Made by a program: the position numbers and the translations under genes. A stretch of DNA of 64,000 bases from Monoglobus pectinilyticus (GTDB taxonomy: Bacteria > Bacillota > Clostridia > Monoglobales > Monoglobaceae): positions 1,679,225-1,743,224 of the forward strand of contig NZ_CP020991.1 in assembly GCF_002874775.1 (NCBI RefSeq). The letters run 5' to 3'. Positions 3,510 through 64,000 of the stretch are shown here, one piece after another. The notes under the pieces were generated by a model that made no database searches, had not been told where the DNA came from, and saw only the letters and a list, made by a program, of their open reading frames with translations. The first letter of the stretch is position 1. Each line of letters opens with the position of its first letter.

Positions 3510-4091
3510 ATGAATAATGAAATTAAAATACGTGCGGCAAAAGCGGAGGACGCTAAAGCGCTTCTAAATATATATGAGCCTTATGTCAGGAACACAGCTG
3601 TAACATTTGAATATGAAGTGCCTTCTTTACAAACTTTTGCTGAAAGGATTTGTAATGTGCTGGACAAGTATCCATATCTCCTGGCTGAAAAAAACGGCGA
3701 GGTTTTGGGTTACGCTTATGCGGATTCCTTTCACGAGCGGGCGGCTTATAAATGGGCGGCGGAAACTTCTGTATACATAAAGATGAATAAGAGGAGGTCG
3801 GGGATTGGGAAGATTCTATATAATGAGCTGGAAAACATTTTGAAAATGCAGGGAATTTTGAATCTTAATGCCTGTATTGCCTGTCTAAGTAAAAAAGATG
3901 AGCATATATCCGACGATAGTTTGATTTTTCATAAAAAGCGCGGTTATAAGTATGTTGGGAAGTTTCATAAATGCGGATATAAATTTAACAAGTGGTATGA
4001 TATGGTATGGATGGAAAAACACATAGGCTCTCATACAAGTAATCAACCGGAGATAAAAAAATTCAGTGAGATAAAAATTGATATAGGCTGA
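3510..4091 (+). CDS. GNAT N-acetyltransferase, phosphinothricin acetyltransferase-like
   Basis: 193 aa. The N-terminal IRAAKAEDAKALLNIYEPY and the following NTAVTFEYE are typical of the PAT/MddA branch of GNAT acetyltransferases, which acetylate small amines such as methionine sulfoximine or phosphinothricin. The acetyl-CoA pyrophosphate loop is RRSGIGK at residues 95-101. The C-terminal half has a GYKYVGKFHKCGYKFNKWYDMVWM-type ending seen in the same branch. The last ~22 residues are an unrelated charged tail. AGGA about ten bases upstream supports the ATG. It stands alone between the pectate lyase and rpoB. The substrate is unknown; a general N-acetyl detoxifying role is inference. Confidence 0.85.
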   Translation: MNNEIKIRAAKAEDAKALLNIYEPYVRNTAVTFEYEVPSLQTFAERICNVLDKYPYLLAEKNGEVLGYAYADSFHERAAYKWAAETSVYIKMNKRRSGIGKILYNELENILKMQGILNLNACIACLSKKDEHISDDSLIFHKKRGYKYVGKFHKCGYKFNKWYDMVWMEKHIGSHTSNQPEIKKFSEIKIDIG

Positions 4092-8406: not shown

Positions 8407-11400
8407 ATGGGAGAATATCAAAATTTTGAAGCAATCAAAATCGGACTTGCTTCACCTGAAAAAATCAGGGAATGGTCCAGAGGTGAAGTAAAGAAGCCGG
8501 AAACTATAAACTACAGAACACTGAAACCTGAAAAAGACGGTTTGTTCTGTGAAAGAATATTCGGACCGCAGAAGGACTGGGAGTGTCATTGCGGTAAGTA
8601 CAAGAGAGTTCGTTATAAGGGCGTTGTTTGTGACCGATGCGGAGTTGAGGTTACAAGAAGCAAGGTAAGGCGTGAGCGTATGGGACATATTGAGCTGGCT
8701 GTCCCGGTTTCACATATTTGGTATTTTAAAGGAATACCGTCTCGTATGGGATTAATGCTTGATATTTCTCCGCGCGCGCTTGAGAAAGTGCTGTATTTTG
8801 CCGCTTATATAGTTATTGATCCGGGCAATACCGGACTTATGAAAAATCAAATACTGACTGAGAAGGAATATACAGAAAACCGTGAGAAATACGGTGATAT
8901 GTTCCGTGCCGGTATGGGAGCTGAATCAATACTTGAAATGCTCCGTGAAATTGATCTTGAGGAACTATATCAGGAACTCAAGAATGATTTGGAAGGCGCA
9001 AAGGGTCAGAAAAAAATCAGAACTGTAAGACGTCTTGAGGTCGTTGAAGCTTTCAGACAGTCAGGAAATAAGCCTGAGTGGATGATTTTATCGGTTATTC
9101 CTGTTATACCGCCTGAAATTAGACCAATGGTTCAGCTGGACGGCGGAAGATTTGCAACCAGTGACTTGAATGACCTTTACCGACGCGTTATAAACAGAAA
9201 TAACAGACTGAAACGTCTGCTTGATTTGGGCGCTCCTGATATTATTGTCAGAAACGAGAAGAGAATGCTTCAGGAGGCGGTTGACGCATTAATTGATAAC
9301 GGAAGACGCGGCAGACCTGTTACCGGACCCGGAAACAGACCGCTCAAGTCTTTGTCAGATATGCTTAAAGGTAAGCAGGGACGTTTCCGTCAGAACCTTT
9401 TGGGAAAACGTGTTGACTATTCAGGCCGTTCAGTTATCGTTGTAGGACCGGAGCTAAAGATTTATCAGTGCGGACTTCCTAAAAAGATGGCTTTGGAATT
9501 GTTTAAGCCATTTGTTATGAAGAAGCTGGTAGAAGACGGGCTTGCTCATAATATAAAATCTGCAAAGAGAATGGTAGAGCGCGTCCGTGAAGAAGTTTGG
9601 GATGTACTTGAGGATGTAATTGCAGACCATCCGGTTCTTCTGAACCGTGCGCCAACACTTCATAGGCTGGGTATTGAAGCCTTTGAGCCTGTGTTGGTTG
9701 AAGGTAAGGCTCTGAAGCTTCACCCTCTTGTTTGTACTGCGTTTAACGCTGACTTTGACGGTGACCAAATGGCTGTTCACCTTCCGCTTTCAGCAGAAGC
9801 CCAGGCTGAGGCAAGATACTTGATGCTGTCAGCAAACAACCTGATAAAGCCTCAGGACGGTAAGCCGGTTACGGTTCCGACTCAGGATATGGTTTTGGGT
9901 TCGTATTACCTTACTCTTAAAGATGATACCGAGCTTGGATCTCCGAGAGAAGAGGACGGTCATACTGTATATAGGGTATACAGTTCTCCTACAGAGGCAA
10001 AGCTGGCTTATATAAATAAGACAGTAGGTCTGCACGCTCCTATAAAGGTACGCGTTACAAAAGAGATAGACGGCAGGACAGAGAGCGCTATAATAGACGC
10101 TACTGTCGGAAGACTGATATTCAATGAAAAAATCCCTCAGGATTTGGGATTTGTAGACAGAACCGACCCTGATAAGAGATTTAATCTCGAAATCGGAGAT
10201 GAAGTTCTCAAAAAACCTGACGCTAAAAATATCATCGGCGACAACGTTGAACCCGGTGTTGATAAAAAGCTGTTAGGTAAGATTATTAACGCCAGCATAA
10301 AGGTGCATGGCATAACTGAAACAGCTACTTTGCTTGACGATGTTAAAGCAATGGGATATAAGTATTCTACGATTGGCGCTATAACTGTAGGCGTTTCGGA
10401 TATGGAAATTCCTAAAGAAAAGAAACAGTATCTGCTCGAAGCGGAAGAGGAAATCGATAAGGTTGTTAAGAACTTTAGGCGCGGACTTCTTACCGATGAC
10501 GAGAGATATCAGAAGGTAATCAATATTTGGAACTCTACATCAGATAAGGTTACAAAGGCGCTTATGGATAACCTTAAACAGCTTAATCCGATTTATATGA
10601 TGGCTAATTCAGGAGCCCGCGGAAGCGTTAACCAGATTCGTCAGCTTGCAGCTATGCGTGGTCTTATGGCTGATACGTCGGGAAGAACAATAGAGATTCC
10701 TATTAGAGCTAATTTCCGTGAGGGACTTACAGTGCTTGAATACTTTATCTCTACTCACGGAGCGAGAAAAGGTTTGACAGATACAGCGCTCAGAACAGCC
10801 GATTCAGGTTATCTGACCAGACGTTTGGTTGACGTGTCTCAGGATGTTATTGTTCGTGAGCATGACTGCGGTACGGATGACGGAATTATTGTTTCAGATA
10901 TAATGGACGGTAATGAAGTTATAGAGCCAATGGCAGACAGACTTGAGGGAAGAACTATAATCGGCGACCTCGTTTCTCCTGAAACGGGCGAACTTATTGC
11001 TGCTGACGGCGATATGATAACTCATGATAAGGCGGCTGAAATAGTTAAGTCAGGAATAAAAGAAGTTAAGATACGTTCTGTGGTTAAATGCCGCAGTAAG
11101 GTTGGTATTTGTTCTAAGTGTTACGGTATGAACCTTGCTACTGCGAAGCCGGTTGATATAGGCGAAGCAGTTGGTATAATTGCCGCCCAGTCTATCGGTG
11201 AGCCGGGTACACAGCTGACAATGAGAACGTTCCACGCCGGCGGTGTTGCTCAGGGCGATGATATTACACAGGGTCTTCCGCGTGTCGAGGAGCTTTTTGA
11301 GGCTAGAAAGCCTAAGGGTGTCGCTATCGTTACAGAGGGAGCAGGAACTGTTCATCTTAGCGAAGCTAAACAAAAGCGTGAGATTATTGTGACTAATCAG

Positions 11401-56540: not shown

Positions 56541-56830
56541 CAACGCACCAATGTAGAGTGCGACGAACACATATAACGCTCTCATCAGTCTGAACATTTT
56601 TAATCTACGTACTCGTATAGGGTGCGACCATCAAACATTGTGCCGAGACTTCCCTCAATTATTGATTTCAATCCACGCACCCGTATAGGGGGCGACCTTG
56701 TCAAAGTAATTTAGGAAATCACAGTAGTTTTCATTTCAATCCGCGAACCCGCATAAGGCACGACACAACTTCTTTAATTCATCCGTTGTAAGTTTAACAT
56801 TTCAATCCACACATACGCATAGTGGGTGAC
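56533..56830 (-). CRISPR. Leader-distal part of the type I-C array, degenerate repeats
   Basis: Five 32-bp repeats: 56533-56564, 56597-56628, 56665-56696, 56733-56764, 56799-56830; spacers of 32, 36, 36 and 34 bp. The best (56665) reads ATTTCAATCCACGCACCC on plus and differs from the leader-proximal repeat at two bases; the others carry several changes, and the outermost has lost its 5' half. Progressive loss away from the leader is normal, but here every distal repeat is altered. Transcription is on the minus strand. Confidence 0.9.
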
Positions 56831-56932
56831 TTATTTTCTCATGTTTAGGTTTCTCTGATTCTATTTTAAAATTTAAAATTGCTAAACTGGTGTTAAAATT
56901 TTTTAATTTTTACAGCTTTTATCTATACACAT
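56831..56932. other. Part of the insertion that splits the array
   Basis: Non-coding AT-rich DNA downstream of the small gene at 56933; with 57119-57165 it forms the 335-bp interruption between repeats. No transposase or clear terminal repeats. Confidence 0.6.
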
Positions 56933-57118
56933 TTATAAACTAGGGTCTATTCTTTTTTTACAATTTCTGCAAATTTCATAATGCTTTTGAGTTAAAAACT
57001 CTTCATCCTTTGTTGGTTTTACTCCGCCATCAACAATCCACTGTAATTCAATACAATAACCTAGTTCTATTTCTTTTTTCAACATTGGACAATCAACATC
57101 ATCTACTATTTTAGTCAT
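56933..57118 (-). CDS. Small four-cysteine protein encoded inside the CRISPR array
   Basis: 61 aa: MTKIVDDVDCPMLKKEI, LGYCIELQWIVDGGVKPTKD, then YEICRNCKKRIDPSL. Two Cys pairs suggest one bound zinc. It is clearly paralogous to the prophage-remnant protein at 25915-26109 (shared CPMLK, YCIELQ, PT..E, C..CKK). AAGGTGATG precedes the ATG at 57118 and a TATAAT-like box lies upstream. It reads in the same direction as the cas genes and array. Function unknown; an anti-CRISPR or cargo-gene role is speculation. Confidence 0.72.
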   Translation of the reverse strand: MTKIVDDVDCPMLKKEIELGYCIELQWIVDGGVKPTKDEEFLTQKHYEICRNCKKRIDPSL

Positions 57119-57165
57119 TTATTCATCACCTTATATATTATATTTGCAGTACAATCAGTAGTATA

Positions 57166-57332
57166 ATTTCAATCCACGCACCCTTCACGGGTGCGACGCC
57201 TGAAAACCTTGATAGCATATTTACTTCCTTGTCATTTCAATCCACGCACCCGTGTAGGGTGCGACCGTCTAACAGAAGAACACGAAATAAATCAAAAGTT
57301 ATTTCAATCCACGCACCCGTGTAGGGTGCGAC
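57166..57332 (-). CRISPR. Leader-proximal part of the type I-C array
   Basis: Three 32-bp repeats at 57166-57197, 57234-57265 and 57301-57332, with spacers of 36 and 35 bp. On the coding (minus) strand the repeat reads GTCGCACCCTACACGGGTGC then GTGGATTGAAAT, the standard type I-C repeat with its internal GCACCC/GGGTGC stem. The last two copies are identical; 57166 differs at a few positions in the loop. Confidence 0.96.
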
Positions 57333-57502
57333 TGCAAAAATATATAAAATTGGTATATTTTTATTCTTATAATTGTTATATTGCGACATAATATTTAAAT
57401 CTTTAATATAATATGTGTTTATAAGAATGTCTCTAATTATATATTTTTGTAAAAACGCGGTGCGAACCTCCTAGGGAAATCATGTGAGCTTACGGTTCGC
57501 AC
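57333..57502 (-). promoter_or_regulatory. CRISPR leader with inverted repeat
   Basis: About 170 bp between the cas2 stop and the first repeat, AT-rich. GGTGCGAACC (57459-57468) and GGTTCGCACC (57494-57503) form a perfect inverted repeat right after cas2, as seen in other I-C leaders. The array promoter should lie here, reading towards lower coordinates. Confidence 0.7.
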
Positions 57503-57793
57503 CTAAAATATCAGGGGTTCATTTACATCGTGTGATGGCTTTATCCCTATATGCTCAACTTTGCTTTTGTAGTTGTTTCCAAGATAATAAAAACGCAGGC
57601 TATCAGTTTCTTTGTCTATTATTTTTTCTAACTTATGTAACAGCATTTTTGATTGTCCTGCATCAAGAAAACACTCAAATACTGAATTTTGTACTCCCTG
57701 ACCATAGTTAACACACTGTTTCGCTACTTTCCTTAATCTTGTTTTTCCGGCGGGCGTTTCGGTGTTTACGTCATATGTGATTAAAACAAGCAT
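57503..57793 (-). CDS. cas2: CRISPR-associated endonuclease Cas2, type I-C
   Basis: 96 aa from the ATG at 57793, with AGGTGAG upstream; the longer open frame runs back into cas1. MLVLITYDVNTETPAGKTRL has the conserved strand-1 Asp (D8), followed by RLRKVAKQCVNYGQGVQNSV and FECFLDAGQ, all typical of I-C Cas2. It normally bridges two Cas1 dimers during spacer integration. It is the only intact adaptation gene here, because cas1 and cas4 are broken. Confidence 0.95.
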   Translation of the reverse strand: MLVLITYDVNTETPAGKTRLRKVAKQCVNYGQGVQNSVFECFLDAGQSKMLLHKLEKIIDKETDSLRFYYLGNNYKSKVEHIGIKPSHDVNEPLIF

Positions 57794-57803
57794 GAAACTC
57801 ACC

Positions 57804-58331
57804 TCATTTCCATAGTAATGGAGGATATGCGTCCGTATCGCCGCGGATATATCTTGCCAGCAACTGTGCTTATACAAGTATTGCCGTGCCCCACTGCATT
57901 TTTTCTTTTGTGAAAGGATGTGTTATTGTCTCTTGTTTTTTGTTCTGCCATTGGCTCAGAATCGTTTTTCTTGCTTCATCACAGATAGTAACCGCTCCGC
58001 TCTCTTTTTGAGAAAAACTATCTATGGTGACTTCCCGTCTGTTTATTAGGCTTAATACAAATCTGTCGGCCAGTATGTTCCTAAACTCTTCCATCAAATC
58101 AAGTCCAAGCGACAGCCTGCCCGGTCTGTCACGGTGCAGGAAGCCTACATATGCGTTTAAGCCGGCCGCCTCAGCTACGGCAGATGTTTCATGTGCGAGC
58201 AGAGTATAAACATAGGACAGCATAGAGTCTACAGGGTCCAAAGGAGGGCGTTTGTTTCTTCCGTTAAACTGAAACTCGTCCTTTTGCTGAAGTATCATTT
58301 CATCAAATACCCCAAAATATATACTTGCTCC
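57804..58331 (-). pseudogene. cas1: cas1 remnant: C-terminal half, with an internal stop
   Basis: The frame picks up at about 58331 with GASIYFGVFDEMILQQKDEF and continues NGRNKRPPLDPVDSMLSYVY, FLHRDRPGR (active-site His) and LGLDLMEEF (Asp). The first ~185 residues, including the active-site Glu, are missing. At 57870-57872 a TAA stands where homologues have Gln: GTAILV-stop-AQLLARYIRG, then DTDAYPPLLWK to 57804. An ATG at 58298 overlaps the cas4 stop, so a 142-aa peptide could be made, but not a functional integrase. Confidence 0.93.
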
Positions 58332-58468
58332 GTAAATATGCCGCCTTCAAGTGTGCGGAGATTTTCTTTCCATTGCCGTTCTATATATATGAGCGCCCAT
58401 TGTCTGGGACAGAAAGTGAAATGCTGGATTCCTCCCAAAGGCAGAAAATCCTCCTCATTATATTCCAT
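58295..58468 (-). pseudogene. cas4: cas4 remnant: N-terminal quarter
   Basis: Starts normally at 58468, overlapping the cas7 stop. MEYNEEDFLPLGGIQHFTFC and PRQWALIYIERQWKENLRT are the N-terminus of I-C Cas4, with the first cluster Cys in FCPRQW. After about residue 45 the sequence runs into cas1 DNA and stops at codon 58. The RecB nuclease motifs and the three C-terminal Cys for the iron-sulfur cluster are lost. The junction with cas1 lies near 58330. Confidence 0.92.
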
Positions 58469-59294
58469 TAAACTCCTCCGCTTCAAGACCGCTAAGAGGT
58501 TCAACTGATATAGAATAATCCGCAAGCGACTTGCCTTCGCCGCTGACAACTACTTTTAAACTCCTGTGTACTGTGGCGGATGAGTATTGCCCTGCTTTGC
58601 AGTTATGTTTCCACCAGTATACCTTTAAAATTTCCATACTGCCGTCAGGTCTTGCTGATGAGCAATCGTTTTCAAACAGGGTGCAGAGAGCCTTTTTAAT
58701 CTGCTCGGCGTCCTCCTCGGTAAAGCCTGTCTTTTCAGCAAGCTGAACATTAATGCTGCCGAAAAATTTGTATACTCCGAAATCAACCCTGTGTTTTGAG
58801 CCCATTGTGTCTGACGCTTTTGCTTTTCCGGACGCACTGTTTACGCTTTTGGTTATCTGCATGCTTGTAACGTCTATAGGTTTAATGCTCACCGCGGTTT
58901 GGACTGTTACAGGCCCTCTGACTCCAACTGATAGATTGTCGCCTTTAAACGCAAACACTTGTCCGAAACTGCGAACGTCTATCCATTCTTTGCAGGCGGT
59001 TTCTGCATATTTATCAACGTCTTTTTTTATTGCTTTTAATTCTTCGCACGCGTCGGCGCGTTCGTGGAGGCTGTCAAAGCCGTCGTCTTTTCTTTCATTA
59101 GATTGTACAAATATTTTTTCTCCCAGGTCTTGGAGACGGTTTCTGATTTTTCTTTTAAGGCAGACGTCTGATACCTCGCCGTATCCGTCATAATTTATTC
59201 TCGGTCTGTTCCCGTCGAGCGGGTCTCCGTTAGGGTTGGCTTTGTTAACTGAAAATACCACAGCAAAATCAATTTTGTTTTGTAAAGTGCTCAT
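58458..59294 (-). CDS. cas7: Cascade backbone protein Cas7 (Csd2), type I-C
   Basis: 278 aa, the usual length. NKIDFAVVFSVNKANPNGDP and LDGNRPRINYDGYGEVSDVC, then LKRKIRNRLQ, are the hallmark N-terminus of Csd2. ITKSVNSASGKAKASDTMGS matches the central block. Several copies coat the crRNA spacer in the I-C Cascade. Start codon overlaps the cas8c stop; the stop overlaps the cas4 start. No defect seen. Confidence 0.95.
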   Translation of the reverse strand: MSTLQNKIDFAVVFSVNKANPNGDPLDGNRPRINYDGYGEVSDVCLKRKIRNRLQDLGEKIFVQSNERKDDGFDSLHERADACEELKAIKKDVDKYAETACKEWIDVRSFGQVFAFKGDNLSVGVRGPVTVQTAVSIKPIDVTSMQITKSVNSASGKAKASDTMGSKHRVDFGVYKFFGSINVQLAEKTGFTEEDAEQIKKALCTLFENDCSSARPDGSMEILKVYWWKHNCKAGQYSSATVHRSLKVVVSGEGKSLADYSISVEPLSGLEAEEFNGI

Positions 59295-61189
59295 TAGTTT
59301 TCCTCCGTTTCTTTTGTTTCGTCTTTTTTATCATGTTTTTTTAATAGTTCTGCTTTTTGACAAGCATATCCCAATAAATATTGTGGGTCGAGCGGTTTGT
59401 TATTCATAAAATCATTGGCGCTTATTTCAGCAATAACTTTTTGCATCTCGTCGTACAGCCATGTGCTTGAACTATAAAGCTTTTCAACATACGGAAGCAG
59501 TTTTTCATCAATTACCATAAGCGTTTTAGCCGGCTGTATTCTGTATTTGCTTCTAAGTTTTATAGCGTTCGGAGGACGCTTGTCTCCTGATTTATACAAA
59601 ACATAGTCTTCAATTTGTTCGGCATAGGCCAATACCCTGCCGAAAAGATAGCTTCTGTCTTTGTTGCTTATATCTAATGACATGCTGTAGTTCATCCCTT
59701 TCGTATCATATATGTATTTATTTATAATTGAACATGTTATGCTGGTCGCTTTGCTCAATTCCCAGTCCTCATTAAAAGATTGAGGATTTGAAACTCTTTG
59801 CAGTGACTTGTTCATAAAATCTTTGGGCATGCGTTTGCCGTCGGTTATGCAGGATATTAGTATTTCCATCAAATGCTTTTTTTGTTTTTCGTCAACATTT
59901 CTTCCGTAGGCAGCATATATAATATCGTTTATTGAAGGCGCGCCGGTGAACTCAATATGTTTTAATTCTTGTTTTCCGTCCGGTAAAATCTTGCTGACTA
60001 GTTTATATTTGTGATTCCAAACGCAGGTCGTATGCCAGGTTTTTATTCTGTCAAGATAATCGTTTGGTGAAAATTCACGGTAGTATGTAATAGACAGCCG
60101 CCCCGGAGTTGCTGATTCCAAAATCATAATAATAACATTGTCATTATCAGGTATTTTGTATTTATATCCATTTACTGCCAACTCAACAAGCTTGGCGTAC
60201 TGTCTTTCAGAATTATAAATTGCTGCCGGCGCTTCATCTCCAAACGGGTCGCCGCCAGCCGTTATGTCATAGGTGTCCTGTAACGGGGTCGGAATATCCT
60301 CGCCGCCGACGCACCAAACCACAACTGTTTGGTCTCCGGTTGAAAACCCTTGGTTACTGACCAGCCATCTGAGCGCACTGTGTGCTTTATCAGAGCTTTC
60401 AAATCCAACTGAGAATACGTTTTCCTTATTTTTGAATCGTCCTCTATATGTGAAACCGTATTCATCGTTTGCAGAGATTAGTCTTGCGCTGTCTCCGGTT
60501 GTTCGTATTTTTGTAGGGTGCTTATAGGTTACAGCCTGGGTGGTTCCGCTGACAAAACATACAGACTTTTGTTTGCGGGTTTTGACGTCGTATTCCATAT
60601 ATGAATTCATCAGTTCAGAATTTGTGTTGCATTCAAAAGAGTTTCCGTATTTATCCTCAACCCGAAAACGCACAACGGTCTTTGATATATCAGCAGGCTT
60701 ATTGTCTTTGTCGCCGTTCCATTTTAACTTTTCCTCCGGAAGTATTAAACCGGATTCTATCAAGTCATGAAACACAGTGCCGCGTTTTATGTATTTATAT
60801 ATTGCTTTAACTTGGTTTGGACAATTTTCGTCATTACACCAGTCAGAAAGCTGGGAGCAGTATTTTTCATAATTTTTTGAGTTATCTTGCTTAGCTATGT
60901 ATCTTTGCGCGTCGCCGGCTATATATTTTAAGTTGTCATAAACAATATGCGGCGCGTTATTGCTGCTGCGCACAGCGGAATCTTCAGTGCATGGGGTTAT
61001 CGTTCTTGCTTCTGCTTTTGTCAGCGGACGTATACGCAGCAGCTCACCGAATTCATTCAGAAATATCTCGGCGTGAGCATTTTGAACGGTGTGGGAAGGA
61101 GGAGCAAGAGGCATGCTGCAGCGTTTTAATAATTCCGGGCTGTCTTTTAATTTTTCATATGTCTCACAGAGAGCGTTTATCCAGCTCAT
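59294..61189 (-). CDS. cas8c: Cascade large subunit Cas8c (Csd1)
   Basis: 631 aa, normal length. MSWINALCETYEKLKDSPEL and the blocks SDWCNDENCPNQVKAIYKYI, VCFVSGTTQAVTYKHPTKI, GDSARLISANDEYGFTYRGRF and SALRWLVSNQG identify Csd1. It recognises the PAM, displaces the strand and recruits Cas3; in I-C an internal start near its 3' end usually yields the small subunit Cas11, and Met codons suitable for that exist in the last 150 residues. ATGA overlap with cas5. Intact by sequence. Confidence 0.95.
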   Translation of the reverse strand: MSWINALCETYEKLKDSPELLKRCSMPLAPPSHTVQNAHAEIFLNEFGELLRIRPLTKAEARTITPCTEDSAVRSSNNAPHIVYDNLKYIAGDAQRYIAKQDNSKNYEKYCSQLSDWCNDENCPNQVKAIYKYIKRGTVFHDLIESGLILPEEKLKWNGDKDNKPADISKTVVRFRVEDKYGNSFECNTNSELMNSYMEYDVKTRKQKSVCFVSGTTQAVTYKHPTKIRTTGDSARLISANDEYGFTYRGRFKNKENVFSVGFESSDKAHSALRWLVSNQGFSTGDQTVVVWCVGGEDIPTPLQDTYDITAGGDPFGDEAPAAIYNSERQYAKLVELAVNGYKYKIPDNDNVIIMILESATPGRLSITYYREFSPNDYLDRIKTWHTTCVWNHKYKLVSKILPDGKQELKHIEFTGAPSINDIIYAAYGRNVDEKQKKHLMEILISCITDGKRMPKDFMNKSLQRVSNPQSFNEDWELSKATSITCSIINKYIYDTKGMNYSMSLDISNKDRSYLFGRVLAYAEQIEDYVLYKSGDKRPPNAIKLRSKYRIQPAKTLMVIDEKLLPYVEKLYSSSTWLYDEMQKVIAEISANDFMNNKPLDPQYLLGYACQKAELLKKHDKKDETKETEEN

Positions 61190-61905
61190 CCAAATACCCC
61201 CCCGCGTTCAAATTCCTCTGCGCCTGAAAAGTTTTTTCCGGGTATAAATGGTTTGATTTTATATTTTTCAGTATCCATCACTATTGAACATTCTTCAGGA
61301 CGTATAAACTCTATAATTCCGTTTTTCATTTGAGCATTCCAAAGCCGGGTCTGCATTTTTTCAAGCCCGGATTCATCGGGATAAGTGATACCATGAACCA
61401 TTATGCCAAATGACATGCTTTCATTATCATAATAACCGTTTCCTTCCCCAAATGTGCAGGGTTCGACATATCCCTGACATTCCCTGGCGCCTAGAAAAAT
61501 ATCGCGTCTTCCGCCCCGGTCCAGCATACGTTTGGTGATGAAAAAGTGTTTATTCTCATCTCTGTCAGCCGACAGCTCTTCTCGCTGCATGTTCCATTCA
61601 AAATGGGCTTCTACCTGGTACTCGGCGTCTATTAAATATGTATATATTGACAGGTCATTAGAATTGTTTTGATATTTTGGAACGCGTATGCCTCTTGATT
61701 CGGTGCGTATGGGATTGATTATTCTCACCCTATCTATGTACCATATAAACGTCGGCTTCCAGTATATACTTTCACATATGCCTTTTAAGGCCTGATATGT
61801 GGGAACTGAATAGTTGAACTTTTCGCCCCCCGCTTTGGTTATAGGGTCGCTGAACAGTGCGGTGCGTCCGGTAAGGCGAAAGCTTATTTTGTTTTCTTTG
61901 TTCAA
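61186..61905 (-). CDS. cas5: crRNA-processing endonuclease Cas5c (Cas5d)
   Basis: About 239 aa from a TTG at 61905, seven bases after GAGGTG (a GTG at 61914 is inside that site). In type I-C this protein replaces Cas6 and cuts the pre-crRNA. The catalytic set is retained: Tyr in SVPTYQALKGICESIYWKPT (equivalent of Y46) and the Lys-His pair in ENKHFFITKRMLDRGGRRDI (K116/H117 equivalents of B. halodurans Cas5d). FLGARECQGYVEP is the C-terminal glycine-rich block. Overlaps cas8c by four bases. Confidence 0.93.
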   Translation of the reverse strand: MNKENKISFRLTGRTALFSDPITKAGGEKFNYSVPTYQALKGICESIYWKPTFIWYIDRVRIINPIRTESRGIRVPKYQNNSNDLSIYTYLIDAEYQVEAHFEWNMQREELSADRDENKHFFITKRMLDRGGRRDIFLGARECQGYVEPCTFGEGNGYYDNESMSFGIMVHGITYPDESGLEKMQTRLWNAQMKNGIIEFIRPEECSIVMDTEKYKIKPFIPGKNFSGAEEFERGGVFG

Positions 61906-61926
61906 AAAAATCACCTCTTTAATATT

Positions 61927-64000
61927 TTAAAATTCTAAATCCGGATTCATGTATACTCCGTAATTTTCATCATAAAACCTTCTGTTGAGCACAAATGTTC
62001 CTGTGTCTTCTATAATAAATATTCCTCCGCTGTCTTTCAGCTGCCGTATTTCATTTTCATACAGCGATACGCTGTACGCATAACTCTTTCGGAGCAATTT
62101 GGTCTTTTGGCTGATTTCTGAGCGTCCGTTTAAGTTGTTAATTATTTCAGCTCCGTCTTCATATGGAACAAGCACAGAATATGTTTCGCTGCCGATAACT
62201 GAAAAATTATCCCCGGCTGCCGCAAAGGCTTGTTTTAAAAAAGGCAGAGGTCTTGCAGTGTGAGATTCGATTGAAAATTCGTTTTTCGAAAGCAGACAAA
62301 CAAGTGAATCTTCTTTAGGCAGTTTTACCACATAGTCAAACTCGCTTAAATTGCTTGTTGGGACTTTTAGATATTCGTTGTAATACGCTTCTATTGCTTC
62401 ACGTGAGAGCAAATCAATATTTTTTCTGCGGGACATCACGGCTTCAGTGCATTCTTTTGCTTTTGCTATCTCAGGGAGACTTGAGAGATTTTCACCCTCG
62501 GCCCGTATAAGATATACTTCACGCAGTCCGTTGAACTCTCCTTCTCTGTTGCACCGTCCTGCCGTCTGAATCAAACTGTCAATACCGGCTAAAGCTCTTA
62601 CAGCGCACGAAAATGATAAATCAACGCCGGCCTCTATCAGCTGGGTGCTTATTACCACAAGTTTTTCAGCTGAATCAATATTGGCCTTATTATTCAGCTT
62701 TTGCGTCCGTTCTTTAATTTCTTTGATTAGTTTATCTCTATGTGCACGGCAGAGTTTGGTGGTTAGCAAAATTTTCCGGCAGTCAGAATTTATGGAATCA
62801 TATACGGCGCGGGCGGTCTTGGTAGTGTTAAACACCAGCAGGACAGACGGGTTTCTTATTAAACGTTCGTTGACGAACTCTGCTATTTTTTCATAGTTCA
62901 TACTTTTATCGCTTAGATTTATAGCTTTAACCCTTTTGAGAGCTCCGTCAGTTTCTGAACTGTAAGGAACAATATCAGGAGGAACACTGAGTTTTATTGG
63001 ATGTTCGCTTTCGTTTGACTGCGGCATGGTGGCTGTGCATAAAATTATGGTGGAGCCGCATACTTTGTGCAGAAAGTTTATTGCTTCGTTAAATAGGCTT
63101 AAAGTTTTAATTGGTACCGCCTGAACCTCGTCTATAATGATAACAGAGTTGCAAAGGGCATTCATACGGCGCTGGCAGCCTGGTTTTCGTTTATATATGG
63201 AGTTAAGAAGCTGAACCACTGTTGTAAGTATTACCGGCGCGTTCCACCTCTGTGTATATAATGAATATTTTTCGTCATCATCGTTGATGAAAGCTGAATG
63301 GTGTTCCAAAACCATATCATCACCGCAAATCTCTCTGATTGCGTCAGCGGTTTGGTCAAGAATTGTGGTGTATGGTATAACATAATAAATATGGCCGCAA
63401 TTATGCTTTTGGGCATGATGAAGTGCAAATCTCAATGATGACAGTGTTTTTCCGCCGCCGGTCGGAACATTGAGCCTGTATATTCCTTTGTTATCGGAAA
63501 AATCACAGCATTTTTGAGACACTTCGCATCTAATTTTGTTTAGTGTTGTGTTTGGGGAAAATGACGCGGCTTTGGCTTCCATTTTATTTACGGCTTCTGA
63601 CCAATCAATCGGCTCAGCTAAAAGAGGGTCTATATCAGCCTCAAAGCAGTATGCGTCATAGCGGTCGCTGTCTACCAAAGCAGAAAATAAAAGCTTTTGC
63701 AGCATTCCGCAGGAAAAAGCGTTGAACGGTTTCATCTTTGCTATAAAATCTCTTACTTCTGCAACAGCCTTTTTATAAAGTTCTTTAATTTTATTTTCGC
63801 TGATTACAGTTTCAAAAAATATTTCGGCTGCCTTTTGATAAAAATTGTCAGTTGTATTCATTTTGTTTAAGAAGCCGTTTTCCGCATCTACGGTAATGCA
63901 GTCAAAAAGCCCGGTATGGTGCGAATATACCGCGTCTATAATAAGCTGAGCTGTATACTGCTCGATAACGTCTGCCGCCGACGTATAAAAGTTTCGGTAA
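61927..64000 (-). CDS. cas3: Cas3 helicase-nuclease, type I-C, 5' end beyond window
   Basis: The frame stays open past the internal Met at 63861 to the window edge, so the start lies outside. The visible N-terminal part is the end of the HD nuclease domain, with LIIDAVYSHHTGLFD. The SF2 helicase follows: NVPTGGGKTLSSLRF (Walker A), VIIIDEVQAV (Walker B, DEVQ), LCTATMPQ (motif III) and LIQTAGRCNREGE (motif VI). Cas3 degrades target DNA after Cascade binding. No frameshift is seen in the 691 visible codons. It is separated from cas5 by 12-20 bp. Confidence 0.95.
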   Translation of the reverse strand, partial: YRNFYTSAADVIEQYTAQLIIDAVYSHHTGLFDCITVDAENGFLNKMNTTDNFYQKAAEIFFETVISENKIKELYKKAVAEVRDFIAKMKPFNAFSCGMLQKLLFSALVDSDRYDAYCFEADIDPLLAEPIDWSEAVNKMEAKAASFSPNTTLNKIRCEVSQKCCDFSDNKGIYRLNVPTGGGKTLSSLRFALHHAQKHNCGHIYYVIPYTTILDQTADAIREICGDDMVLEHHSAFINDDDEKYSLYTQRWNAPVILTTVVQLLNSIYKRKPGCQRRMNALCNSVIIIDEVQAVPIKTLSLFNEAINFLHKVCGSTIILCTATMPQSNESEHPIKLSVPPDIVPYSSETDGALKRVKAINLSDKSMNYEKIAEFVNERLIRNPSVLLVFNTTKTARAVYDSINSDCRKILLTTKLCRAHRDKLIKEIKERTQKLNNKANIDSAEKLVVISTQLIEAGVDLSFSCAVRALAGIDSLIQTAGRCNREGEFNGLREVYLIRAEGENLSSLPEIAKAKECTEAVMSRRKNIDLLSREAIEAYYNEYLKVPTSNLSEFDYVVKLPKEDSLVCLLSKNEFSIESHTARPLPFLKQAFAAAGDNFSVIGSETYSVLVPYEDGAEIINNLNGRSEISQKTKLLRKSYAYSVSLYENEIRQLKDSGGIFIIEDTGTFVLNRRFYDENYGVYMNPDLEF

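Follow-up and report, generated by a model that had tools for sequence, protein, structure and literature searches.

The type I-C system of Bacillus halodurans has a working Cas4-Cas1-Cas2 adaptation module in which all three proteins are intact (PMC6519985). Damage to such modules has been described elsewhere. In Streptococcus mutans UA159 both cas1 and cas8c of the type I-C system are truncated (PMC7316486, PMC9522601), and in truncated type I-B loci of Bacteroides fragilis a deletion cuts cas1 next to a short array (PMC5704556). A 2025 classification lists one type and two subtypes that have no adaptation module (PMC12669027).

Here we describe a type I-C locus of Monoglobus pectinilyticus, analyzed in a window of 64,000 nucleotides (C1:1679225-1743224) from a one-contig genome of 2,757,678 bases which is 99.93% complete. 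As in S. mutans UA159, a truncated I-C cas1 occurs beside a type II-A system in one genome. The two cases differ in that cas8c is truncated as well in S. mutans, whereas the four I-C effector genes look whole here, and in that II-A spacer acquisition is reported for S. mutans as a species, whereas the II-A cas1 is also broken here. The deletion-cut cas1 is shared with the B. fragilis I-B loci, yet most effector genes are gone there, the reverse of the situation in M. pectinilyticus, and the B. halodurans module represents the working form of the module which is broken here. Decay of the adaptation module of this kind is already known; it is the broken Cas1 gene of the second system that sets this case apart. 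The explanation we prefer, with a probability of roughly 75%, is that this is a frozen type I-C system which has lost its adaptation module, retains usable effectors and holds a fixed memory that can only shrink.

Type I-C loci for comparison were found through Cas7, and the best 80 of 110 were used. A Cas1 ORF of at least 300 amino acids is present in 73 of these best 80; in six of the remaining seven the contig ends within 1.7 kb of cas7, too early for a verdict, and one, from Savagea serpentis, lost cas1, so cas1 loss is uncommon among the best 80 of 110 I-C loci. In a class sample of 293 genomes a Cas1 match was obtained in 138, and among the matches listed at least eight genomes, that of M. 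pectinilyticus included, cover fewer than 200 of the 283 positions of the Cas1 model, irrespective of contig ends. Savagea serpentis SN6 resembles M. pectinilyticus in that its cas4 breaks at the same conserved stretch, leaving an open stretch of 51 codons, with cas7 and cas8c kept and no cas1 or cas2 within 10 kb. It differs in that cas4 is fused to a CRISPR repeat via a short shared sequence (positions 10960-10985 of the fetched stretch L039), and its deletion is a separate event.

The broken adaptation genes and the effector genes

The type I-C operon is encoded on the minus strand, as are all window features given below. It begins with cas3 (61927..64000), which extends past the window end and is complete in the genome, with 772 amino acids from a GTG at window position 64245. 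Three more effector genes follow: cas5c (61186..61914), a full-length ORF keeping the conserved Lys-His pair; cas8c (csd1, 59294..61189), also a full-length ORF; and cas7 (csd2, 58458..59294), which is intact. This is the type I-C effector order, as assigned by the NCBIfam type I-C models for Cas5c, Cas8c and Cas7 and by the core Cas3 helicase model. On the adaptation side full-length cas4 and full-length cas1 are absent, and their places are taken by a cas4 stump (58295..58468), a 57-codon ORF of which about 45-50 codons are true Cas4, and by the C-terminal part of cas1 (57804..58330). A cas2 ORF of full length (57503..57793), matching TIGR01573 from end to end, is present 3' of the cas1 remnant and is followed by a hairpin, a leader and a short array.

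Alignment with I-C relatives agrees with the first-pass annotation of this DNA, in which cas4 was read as normal for about 45 codons and then as joined to cas1 in a different frame at about 58330. The stump tracks I-C Cas4 for about 45-50 residues and then goes on out of frame, and Cas1 homology restarts at 'GASIYFGVFDEM' near 58330, in another frame than the stump. The junction zone with the frame change falls at 58320..58350, its position being uncertain by about 20 nt. From a fixed Cas4 codon to a fixed Cas1 codon the distance is 113 nt here; among the 22 relatives where it was measurable, the median is 1147 nt. The deletion implied is 1020-1045 nt by the ten nearer relatives, with an implied median of 1034 nt over all 22, and this landmark spacing bears out the earlier estimate of roughly 1 kb. 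The implied loss of about 1.03 kb includes the RGxEGxAA motif of Cas1, which holds the catalytic Glu; the motif is found in aligned relatives and is missing from the remnant. Loss of the N-terminal part of Cas1 together with this residue had been proposed before and holds, with the length corrected by alignment from about 185 to about 175 residues. The remnant contains an ORF of 142 codons (57870..58298), matching TIGR03640 positions 178-317 of 340 and ended by an in-frame TAA at 57870..57872. This codon had been taken for a changed CAA, and all 65 relatives indeed have Gln at that residue. The stump ORF reached no Pfam or NCBIfam family.

Loci of the same genus were rejected as a template for the ends of the deletion, and I-C loci from elsewhere, which are more similar, took their place. 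In seven fetched same-genus I-C-like loci Cas1 is 44-46% and Cas7 33-35% identical; cas8c was matched once, weakly (E 7e-5), and at E 1e-20 in none of the same-genus genomes. Because of these low identities and the near absence of cas8c matches, the same-genus loci represent a different acquisition. A natural Cas4-Cas1 fusion (Cas4g/Cas1g) was also considered and rejected, since the two parts are in different frames with both cores incomplete and the NF049935 match covers only positions 387-517 of 546.

Could the truncated pieces still be functional? The stop of the 57-codon ORF overlaps the ATG of the 142-codon ORF in an ATGA, as in translational coupling, by which a C-terminal piece of Cas1 might be made and retain a role; the conserved His and Asp of this part of Cas1 are kept. 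This idea is hardly credible. The ATG is an internal Met in relatives as well, so the overlap is likely due to chance, and the piece has neither the catalytic Glu motif nor the N-terminal domain and has changed at conserved sites at a higher rate than any other Cas1 compared.

For this comparison we used as a reference set the 65 of 80 fetched I-C loci which have all six genes, counted how many of the sites with a conservation of 90% or more (and of 97% or more) among the others are changed, and scored every relative likewise. The Cas1 remnant is changed at 9 of 54 sites at the 90% level and 3 of 35 at the 97% level, exceeding all 65 relatives at both. It is not alone in being extreme: Cas2, with 1 of 25 sites changed at 90%, is above 64 of 65 relatives at 97% (1 of 18), the sole change, R33G, affecting a residue that all 65 share. 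The effector proteins all fall within the range of the relatives. Cas7 is changed at 3 of 111 sites (90%) and at 0 of 79 near-invariant ones (97%), and Cas5c at 5 of 80 and 1 of 49. Values for the two larger proteins are toward the high end: 13 of 101 for Cas8c, above 59 of 65 relatives, with 1 of 37 at 97%, and 11 of 124 for Cas3, above 58 of 65, with 1 of 27 at 97%, above 60 of 65. A slow decay of interference is a possible reading of these high-end values. Residues 7-234 of the 242 of Cas5c match PDB 4f3m, and residues 15-623 of the 772 of Cas3 align with solved Cas3. Constraint has thus been lost most clearly on the adaptation side, with the effector side constrained at least until recently. 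The earlier description of cas3, cas5, cas8c and cas7 as intact is upheld by whole ORFs and by conserved-site change within the relatives' range, and its corollary, that interference was kept, is upheld at the level of sequence.

A different reading of the same counts is that the whole I-C locus is decaying with interference unused too, cas1 having broken first and the larger effector genes not having been hit yet. We regard this as the less probable course, though one to be taken seriously. It would account for the rather divergent conserved sites of cas3 and cas8c and for changes at sites invariant in 65 relatives, both R33G in cas2 and K236R in cas8c. However, no stop or frameshift occurs in the four effector ORFs, which total about 1,900 codons, whereas in the cas1 remnant, about 0.5 kb long, a stop and three invariant-site changes come on top of the deletion; the unchanged near-invariant sites of cas7 also argue against it.

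Whether another locus could supply the missing proteins was addressed with Pfam profiles over the whole genome. The Cas1 profile matched in two places only, both broken, and the Cas4 profile gave no match, so rescue by another genomic Cas1 or Cas4 was rejected: these models found neither an intact cas1, nor any cas4, nor a full cas4-cas1 pair that might serve this array. The loss of adaptation proposed in the first-pass annotation is strengthened by this result. The other Cas1 place is the type II-A locus at about 500 kb, in which cas9, cas2 and csn2 are full ORFs (the 1361-residue Cas9 aligns with solved Cas9 over residues 2-1359) and the array has four repeats. Its cas1 (L025 7810-8683; C1 ~499.8-500.7 kb) is split by two frameshifts about 75-80 nt apart, as read from the frames, and a same-genus relative has an intact II-A cas1 of 289 codons. 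Compared with 17 relatives, the C-terminal piece is changed at 0 of 25 conserved sites and the short N-terminal piece at 1 of 4 (1 of 3 at full conservation, exceeding all 17). In the rest of the II-A locus changes were found at 0 of 46 conserved sites in cas9, 0 of 21 in cas2 and, with 10 relatives, 1 of 7 in csn2. Since its pieces are little changed, either the II-A cas1 is freshly broken or its frameshifts are sequencing errors.

The latter raises the question of artefacts in the I-C locus as well, namely that neither the deletion nor the TAA exists in the cell. Two frameshifts in a little-changed II-A gene are what sequencing errors could produce. An out-of-frame deletion of 1.03 kb, on the other hand, is no base-call error, and the missense changes at invariant sites in the remnant are expected of a real pseudogene. 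The assembly is one contig and 99.93% complete, and a rough scan of 189.6 kb gave three frame-change junctions without a nearby start codon, a crude measure in which ordinary neighbouring genes dominate and the broken II-A cas1 is listed among the junctions having a start codon. An artefact in the I-C locus is therefore very improbable.

Arrays and a proposed fixed immune memory

The array is preceded by an AT-rich leader (57333..57458). Its three leader-proximal repeats and two spacers occupy 57166..57332 (R1 57301-57332, R2 57234-57265, R3 57166-57197). All three have intact stems and fold with the full processing stem at -13.1 to -14 kcal/mol, in line with the type I-C repeat pattern of a 7-bp stem and a ATTGAAAT 3' end. 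The loop of R3 is approximately the reverse complement of that of R1 and R2, as if flipped. A 335-nt unit (56831..57165) separates R3 from R4. It contains an intact phage-like ORF of 61 amino acids at 56933-57118. Over 202 nt the unit shares 93% identity with C1:6606-6808, a region with a similar ORF after a Phage_Mu_F head gene. The distal repeats R4-R7 with their spacers (56597..56830) are degenerate: stems are lost in R4, R5 and R7 and partial in R6, with folding energies of -1.7 to -8.3 kcal/mol. In a sister species whose intact cas1 belongs to a more distantly related I-C-like system, the fetched stretch contains 73 identical repeats, compared to two copies of R1 here. The short array, its two identical repeats and its degenerate distal part fit the suggestion, also made from the window alone, that the system is frozen. 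Degenerate distal repeats also fit decay of the whole locus.

Repeats of the same family were also found at 875, 660-661, 2747 and 22 kb, the 22-kb one with three mismatches to the pattern. The orphan array at 875 kb (L127 7018-7520) has its own leader and seven repeats, all of which keep the stem with differing loops, and it may now be the main source of guides. A second orphan array with a leader, at 660 kb (L128 6187-6420), has an altered stem which is still paired in two repeats.

Three exact scans of viral contigs, with two spacers and one leader piece, gave no matches, and a phage BLAST of three arrays returned repeat matches or short weak hits without a convincing protospacer. The best of the weak hits are a 23-nt exact match (E 0.1) to one 35-nt spacer and 24-nt matches (E 0.03) in the II-A array. 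This lack of a spacer target in viral contigs and phage BLAST is another point in favor of whole-locus decay. Self-targeting by the two leader-proximal spacers was considered and dropped, as neither has a second copy in the genome within three mismatches. An unannotated 11-kb fecal phage record, MT836291.1, matches I-C arrays of this genome at 3 and 10 places, as though an I-C-like array were part of it.

Under the frozen-system explanation, the type I-C locus was once complete. One deletion of about 1.03 kb, evident from the comparison with relatives, took out the first half of cas1 and the greater part of cas4. Nonsense and missense changes at invariant sites of the leftover cas1 would have come afterwards, and cas2 may have begun to change, in what we presume to be that order. 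Because of the cas4-cas1 deletion and the later mutations, a Cas4-Cas1-Cas2 integrase cannot form and no new spacers are added. Intact genes and repeat folds suggest that Cas5c would still cut transcripts of R1-R3 and of the seven stem-forming 875-kb repeats, and that Cas5c-Cas7-Cas8c with Cas3 would still target matching DNA. Interference thus probably remains possible with a small number of old spacers, and the locus would act as a fixed immune memory able only to shrink. As to why, the first-pass annotation had offered either selection to keep immunity but not acquisition or a recent freeze. Lost adaptation, retained interference genes and a frozen state all find support here; selection for that state is not established. 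That selection retains interference without acquisition is plausible but unproven, and recency alone could explain the intact interference genes.

A genome with broken cas1 genes of apparently different age in both systems, and with no other Cas1 found that might help in trans, offers a natural test of whether bacteria can gain from giving up acquisition but keeping interference. Strains of the species can show whether the effector genes are under selection and whether spacers are only lost.

The hairpin after cas2 and prophage-like leader-repeat units

Overlapping the cas2 stop codon is a 45-nt hairpin (GGTGCGAACC-loop-GGTTCGCACC; 57459..57503) whose stem covaries and which is present in most I-C loci examined. 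A model search (E up to 0.1) placed it within 160 nt after cas2 in 65 of 73 I-C loci, and in 54 the distance is no more than 20 nt. The model had been trained on 46 of the 73, so that the independent count is 19 of 27. None of the 22 type II loci searched with the same model gave a match up to E 1. All nine I-C-like loci from the same genus or family have the hairpin beside cas2 (E up to 0.35), with E of 0.03 or less in eight. The window hairpin matched no Rfam family at gathering scores. In an alignment of 47 loci picked by a script rewarding pairing, a shape-based choice which biases covariation upward, 54 cells are changed on both sides of a pair versus 18.4 on shuffling; none of the 500 shuffles came as high, and with slid controls the number falls to 0-10. 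Counted by pairs, two-sided change affects 7 versus 5.5 on shuffling, and 69 of 500 shuffles reach 7.

The genome has the hairpin in four places. Three are ahead of arrays, in the window, at 875 kb (L127 6848-6892) and at 660 kb (L128 6006-6050), and a weaker one is in a prophage-like region at 545 kb (L194 1501-1544). Because the orphan leaders keep it, the hairpin belongs with the array and not with cas2 alone. A whole-genome search of the genus at E 0.01 found it in 5 of 12 genomes, this one included, with a second place in one; three genus genomes with an I-C-like locus gave no match at this threshold. Its occurrence after cas2 in most I-C systems examined makes it a concrete, testable element of the I-C leader region. 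The fetched stretch of Savagea serpentis has further hairpins at 3918, 14589 and 18149.

Two leader-repeat units are located in prophage-like surroundings. At 545 kb (L194 1501-1617) the hairpin, a short leader and one repeat-like unit, which folds more weakly than R1-R3 (-8.9 kcal/mol), lie between Peptidase_M78 (IrrE-like) and phage integrase genes. At 2747 kb (L129 7100-7310) genes for a serine recombinase and a Peptidase_M78 flank a leader, which shares 92% identity with the window leader over 114 nt, together with one repeat and a degenerate second. Solitary repeat units have been shown to act as RNA anti-CRISPRs (Racr), type I-C included (PMC10651486). A Racr unit is marked by one host-like repeat in a phage, with a promoter upstream. 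The two units found here resemble these and are candidate RNA anti-CRISPRs, a role to be expected chiefly where I-C interference functions or did so until recently, although the 545-kb repeat has the weaker fold.

A broader and more tentative scenario is that CRISPR learning is off genome-wide. The unrelated I-C and II-A systems would have lost Cas1 in separate events with both effector sets still constrained, leaving a read-only memory over cas-linked and orphan arrays, and the prophage leader-repeat units could feed decoy RNA to the I-C effector. We consider this combination doubtful as a whole. A viral contig carries the 545-kb stretch, identical at 1850 of 1850 bases compared, and that contig may be the same organism.
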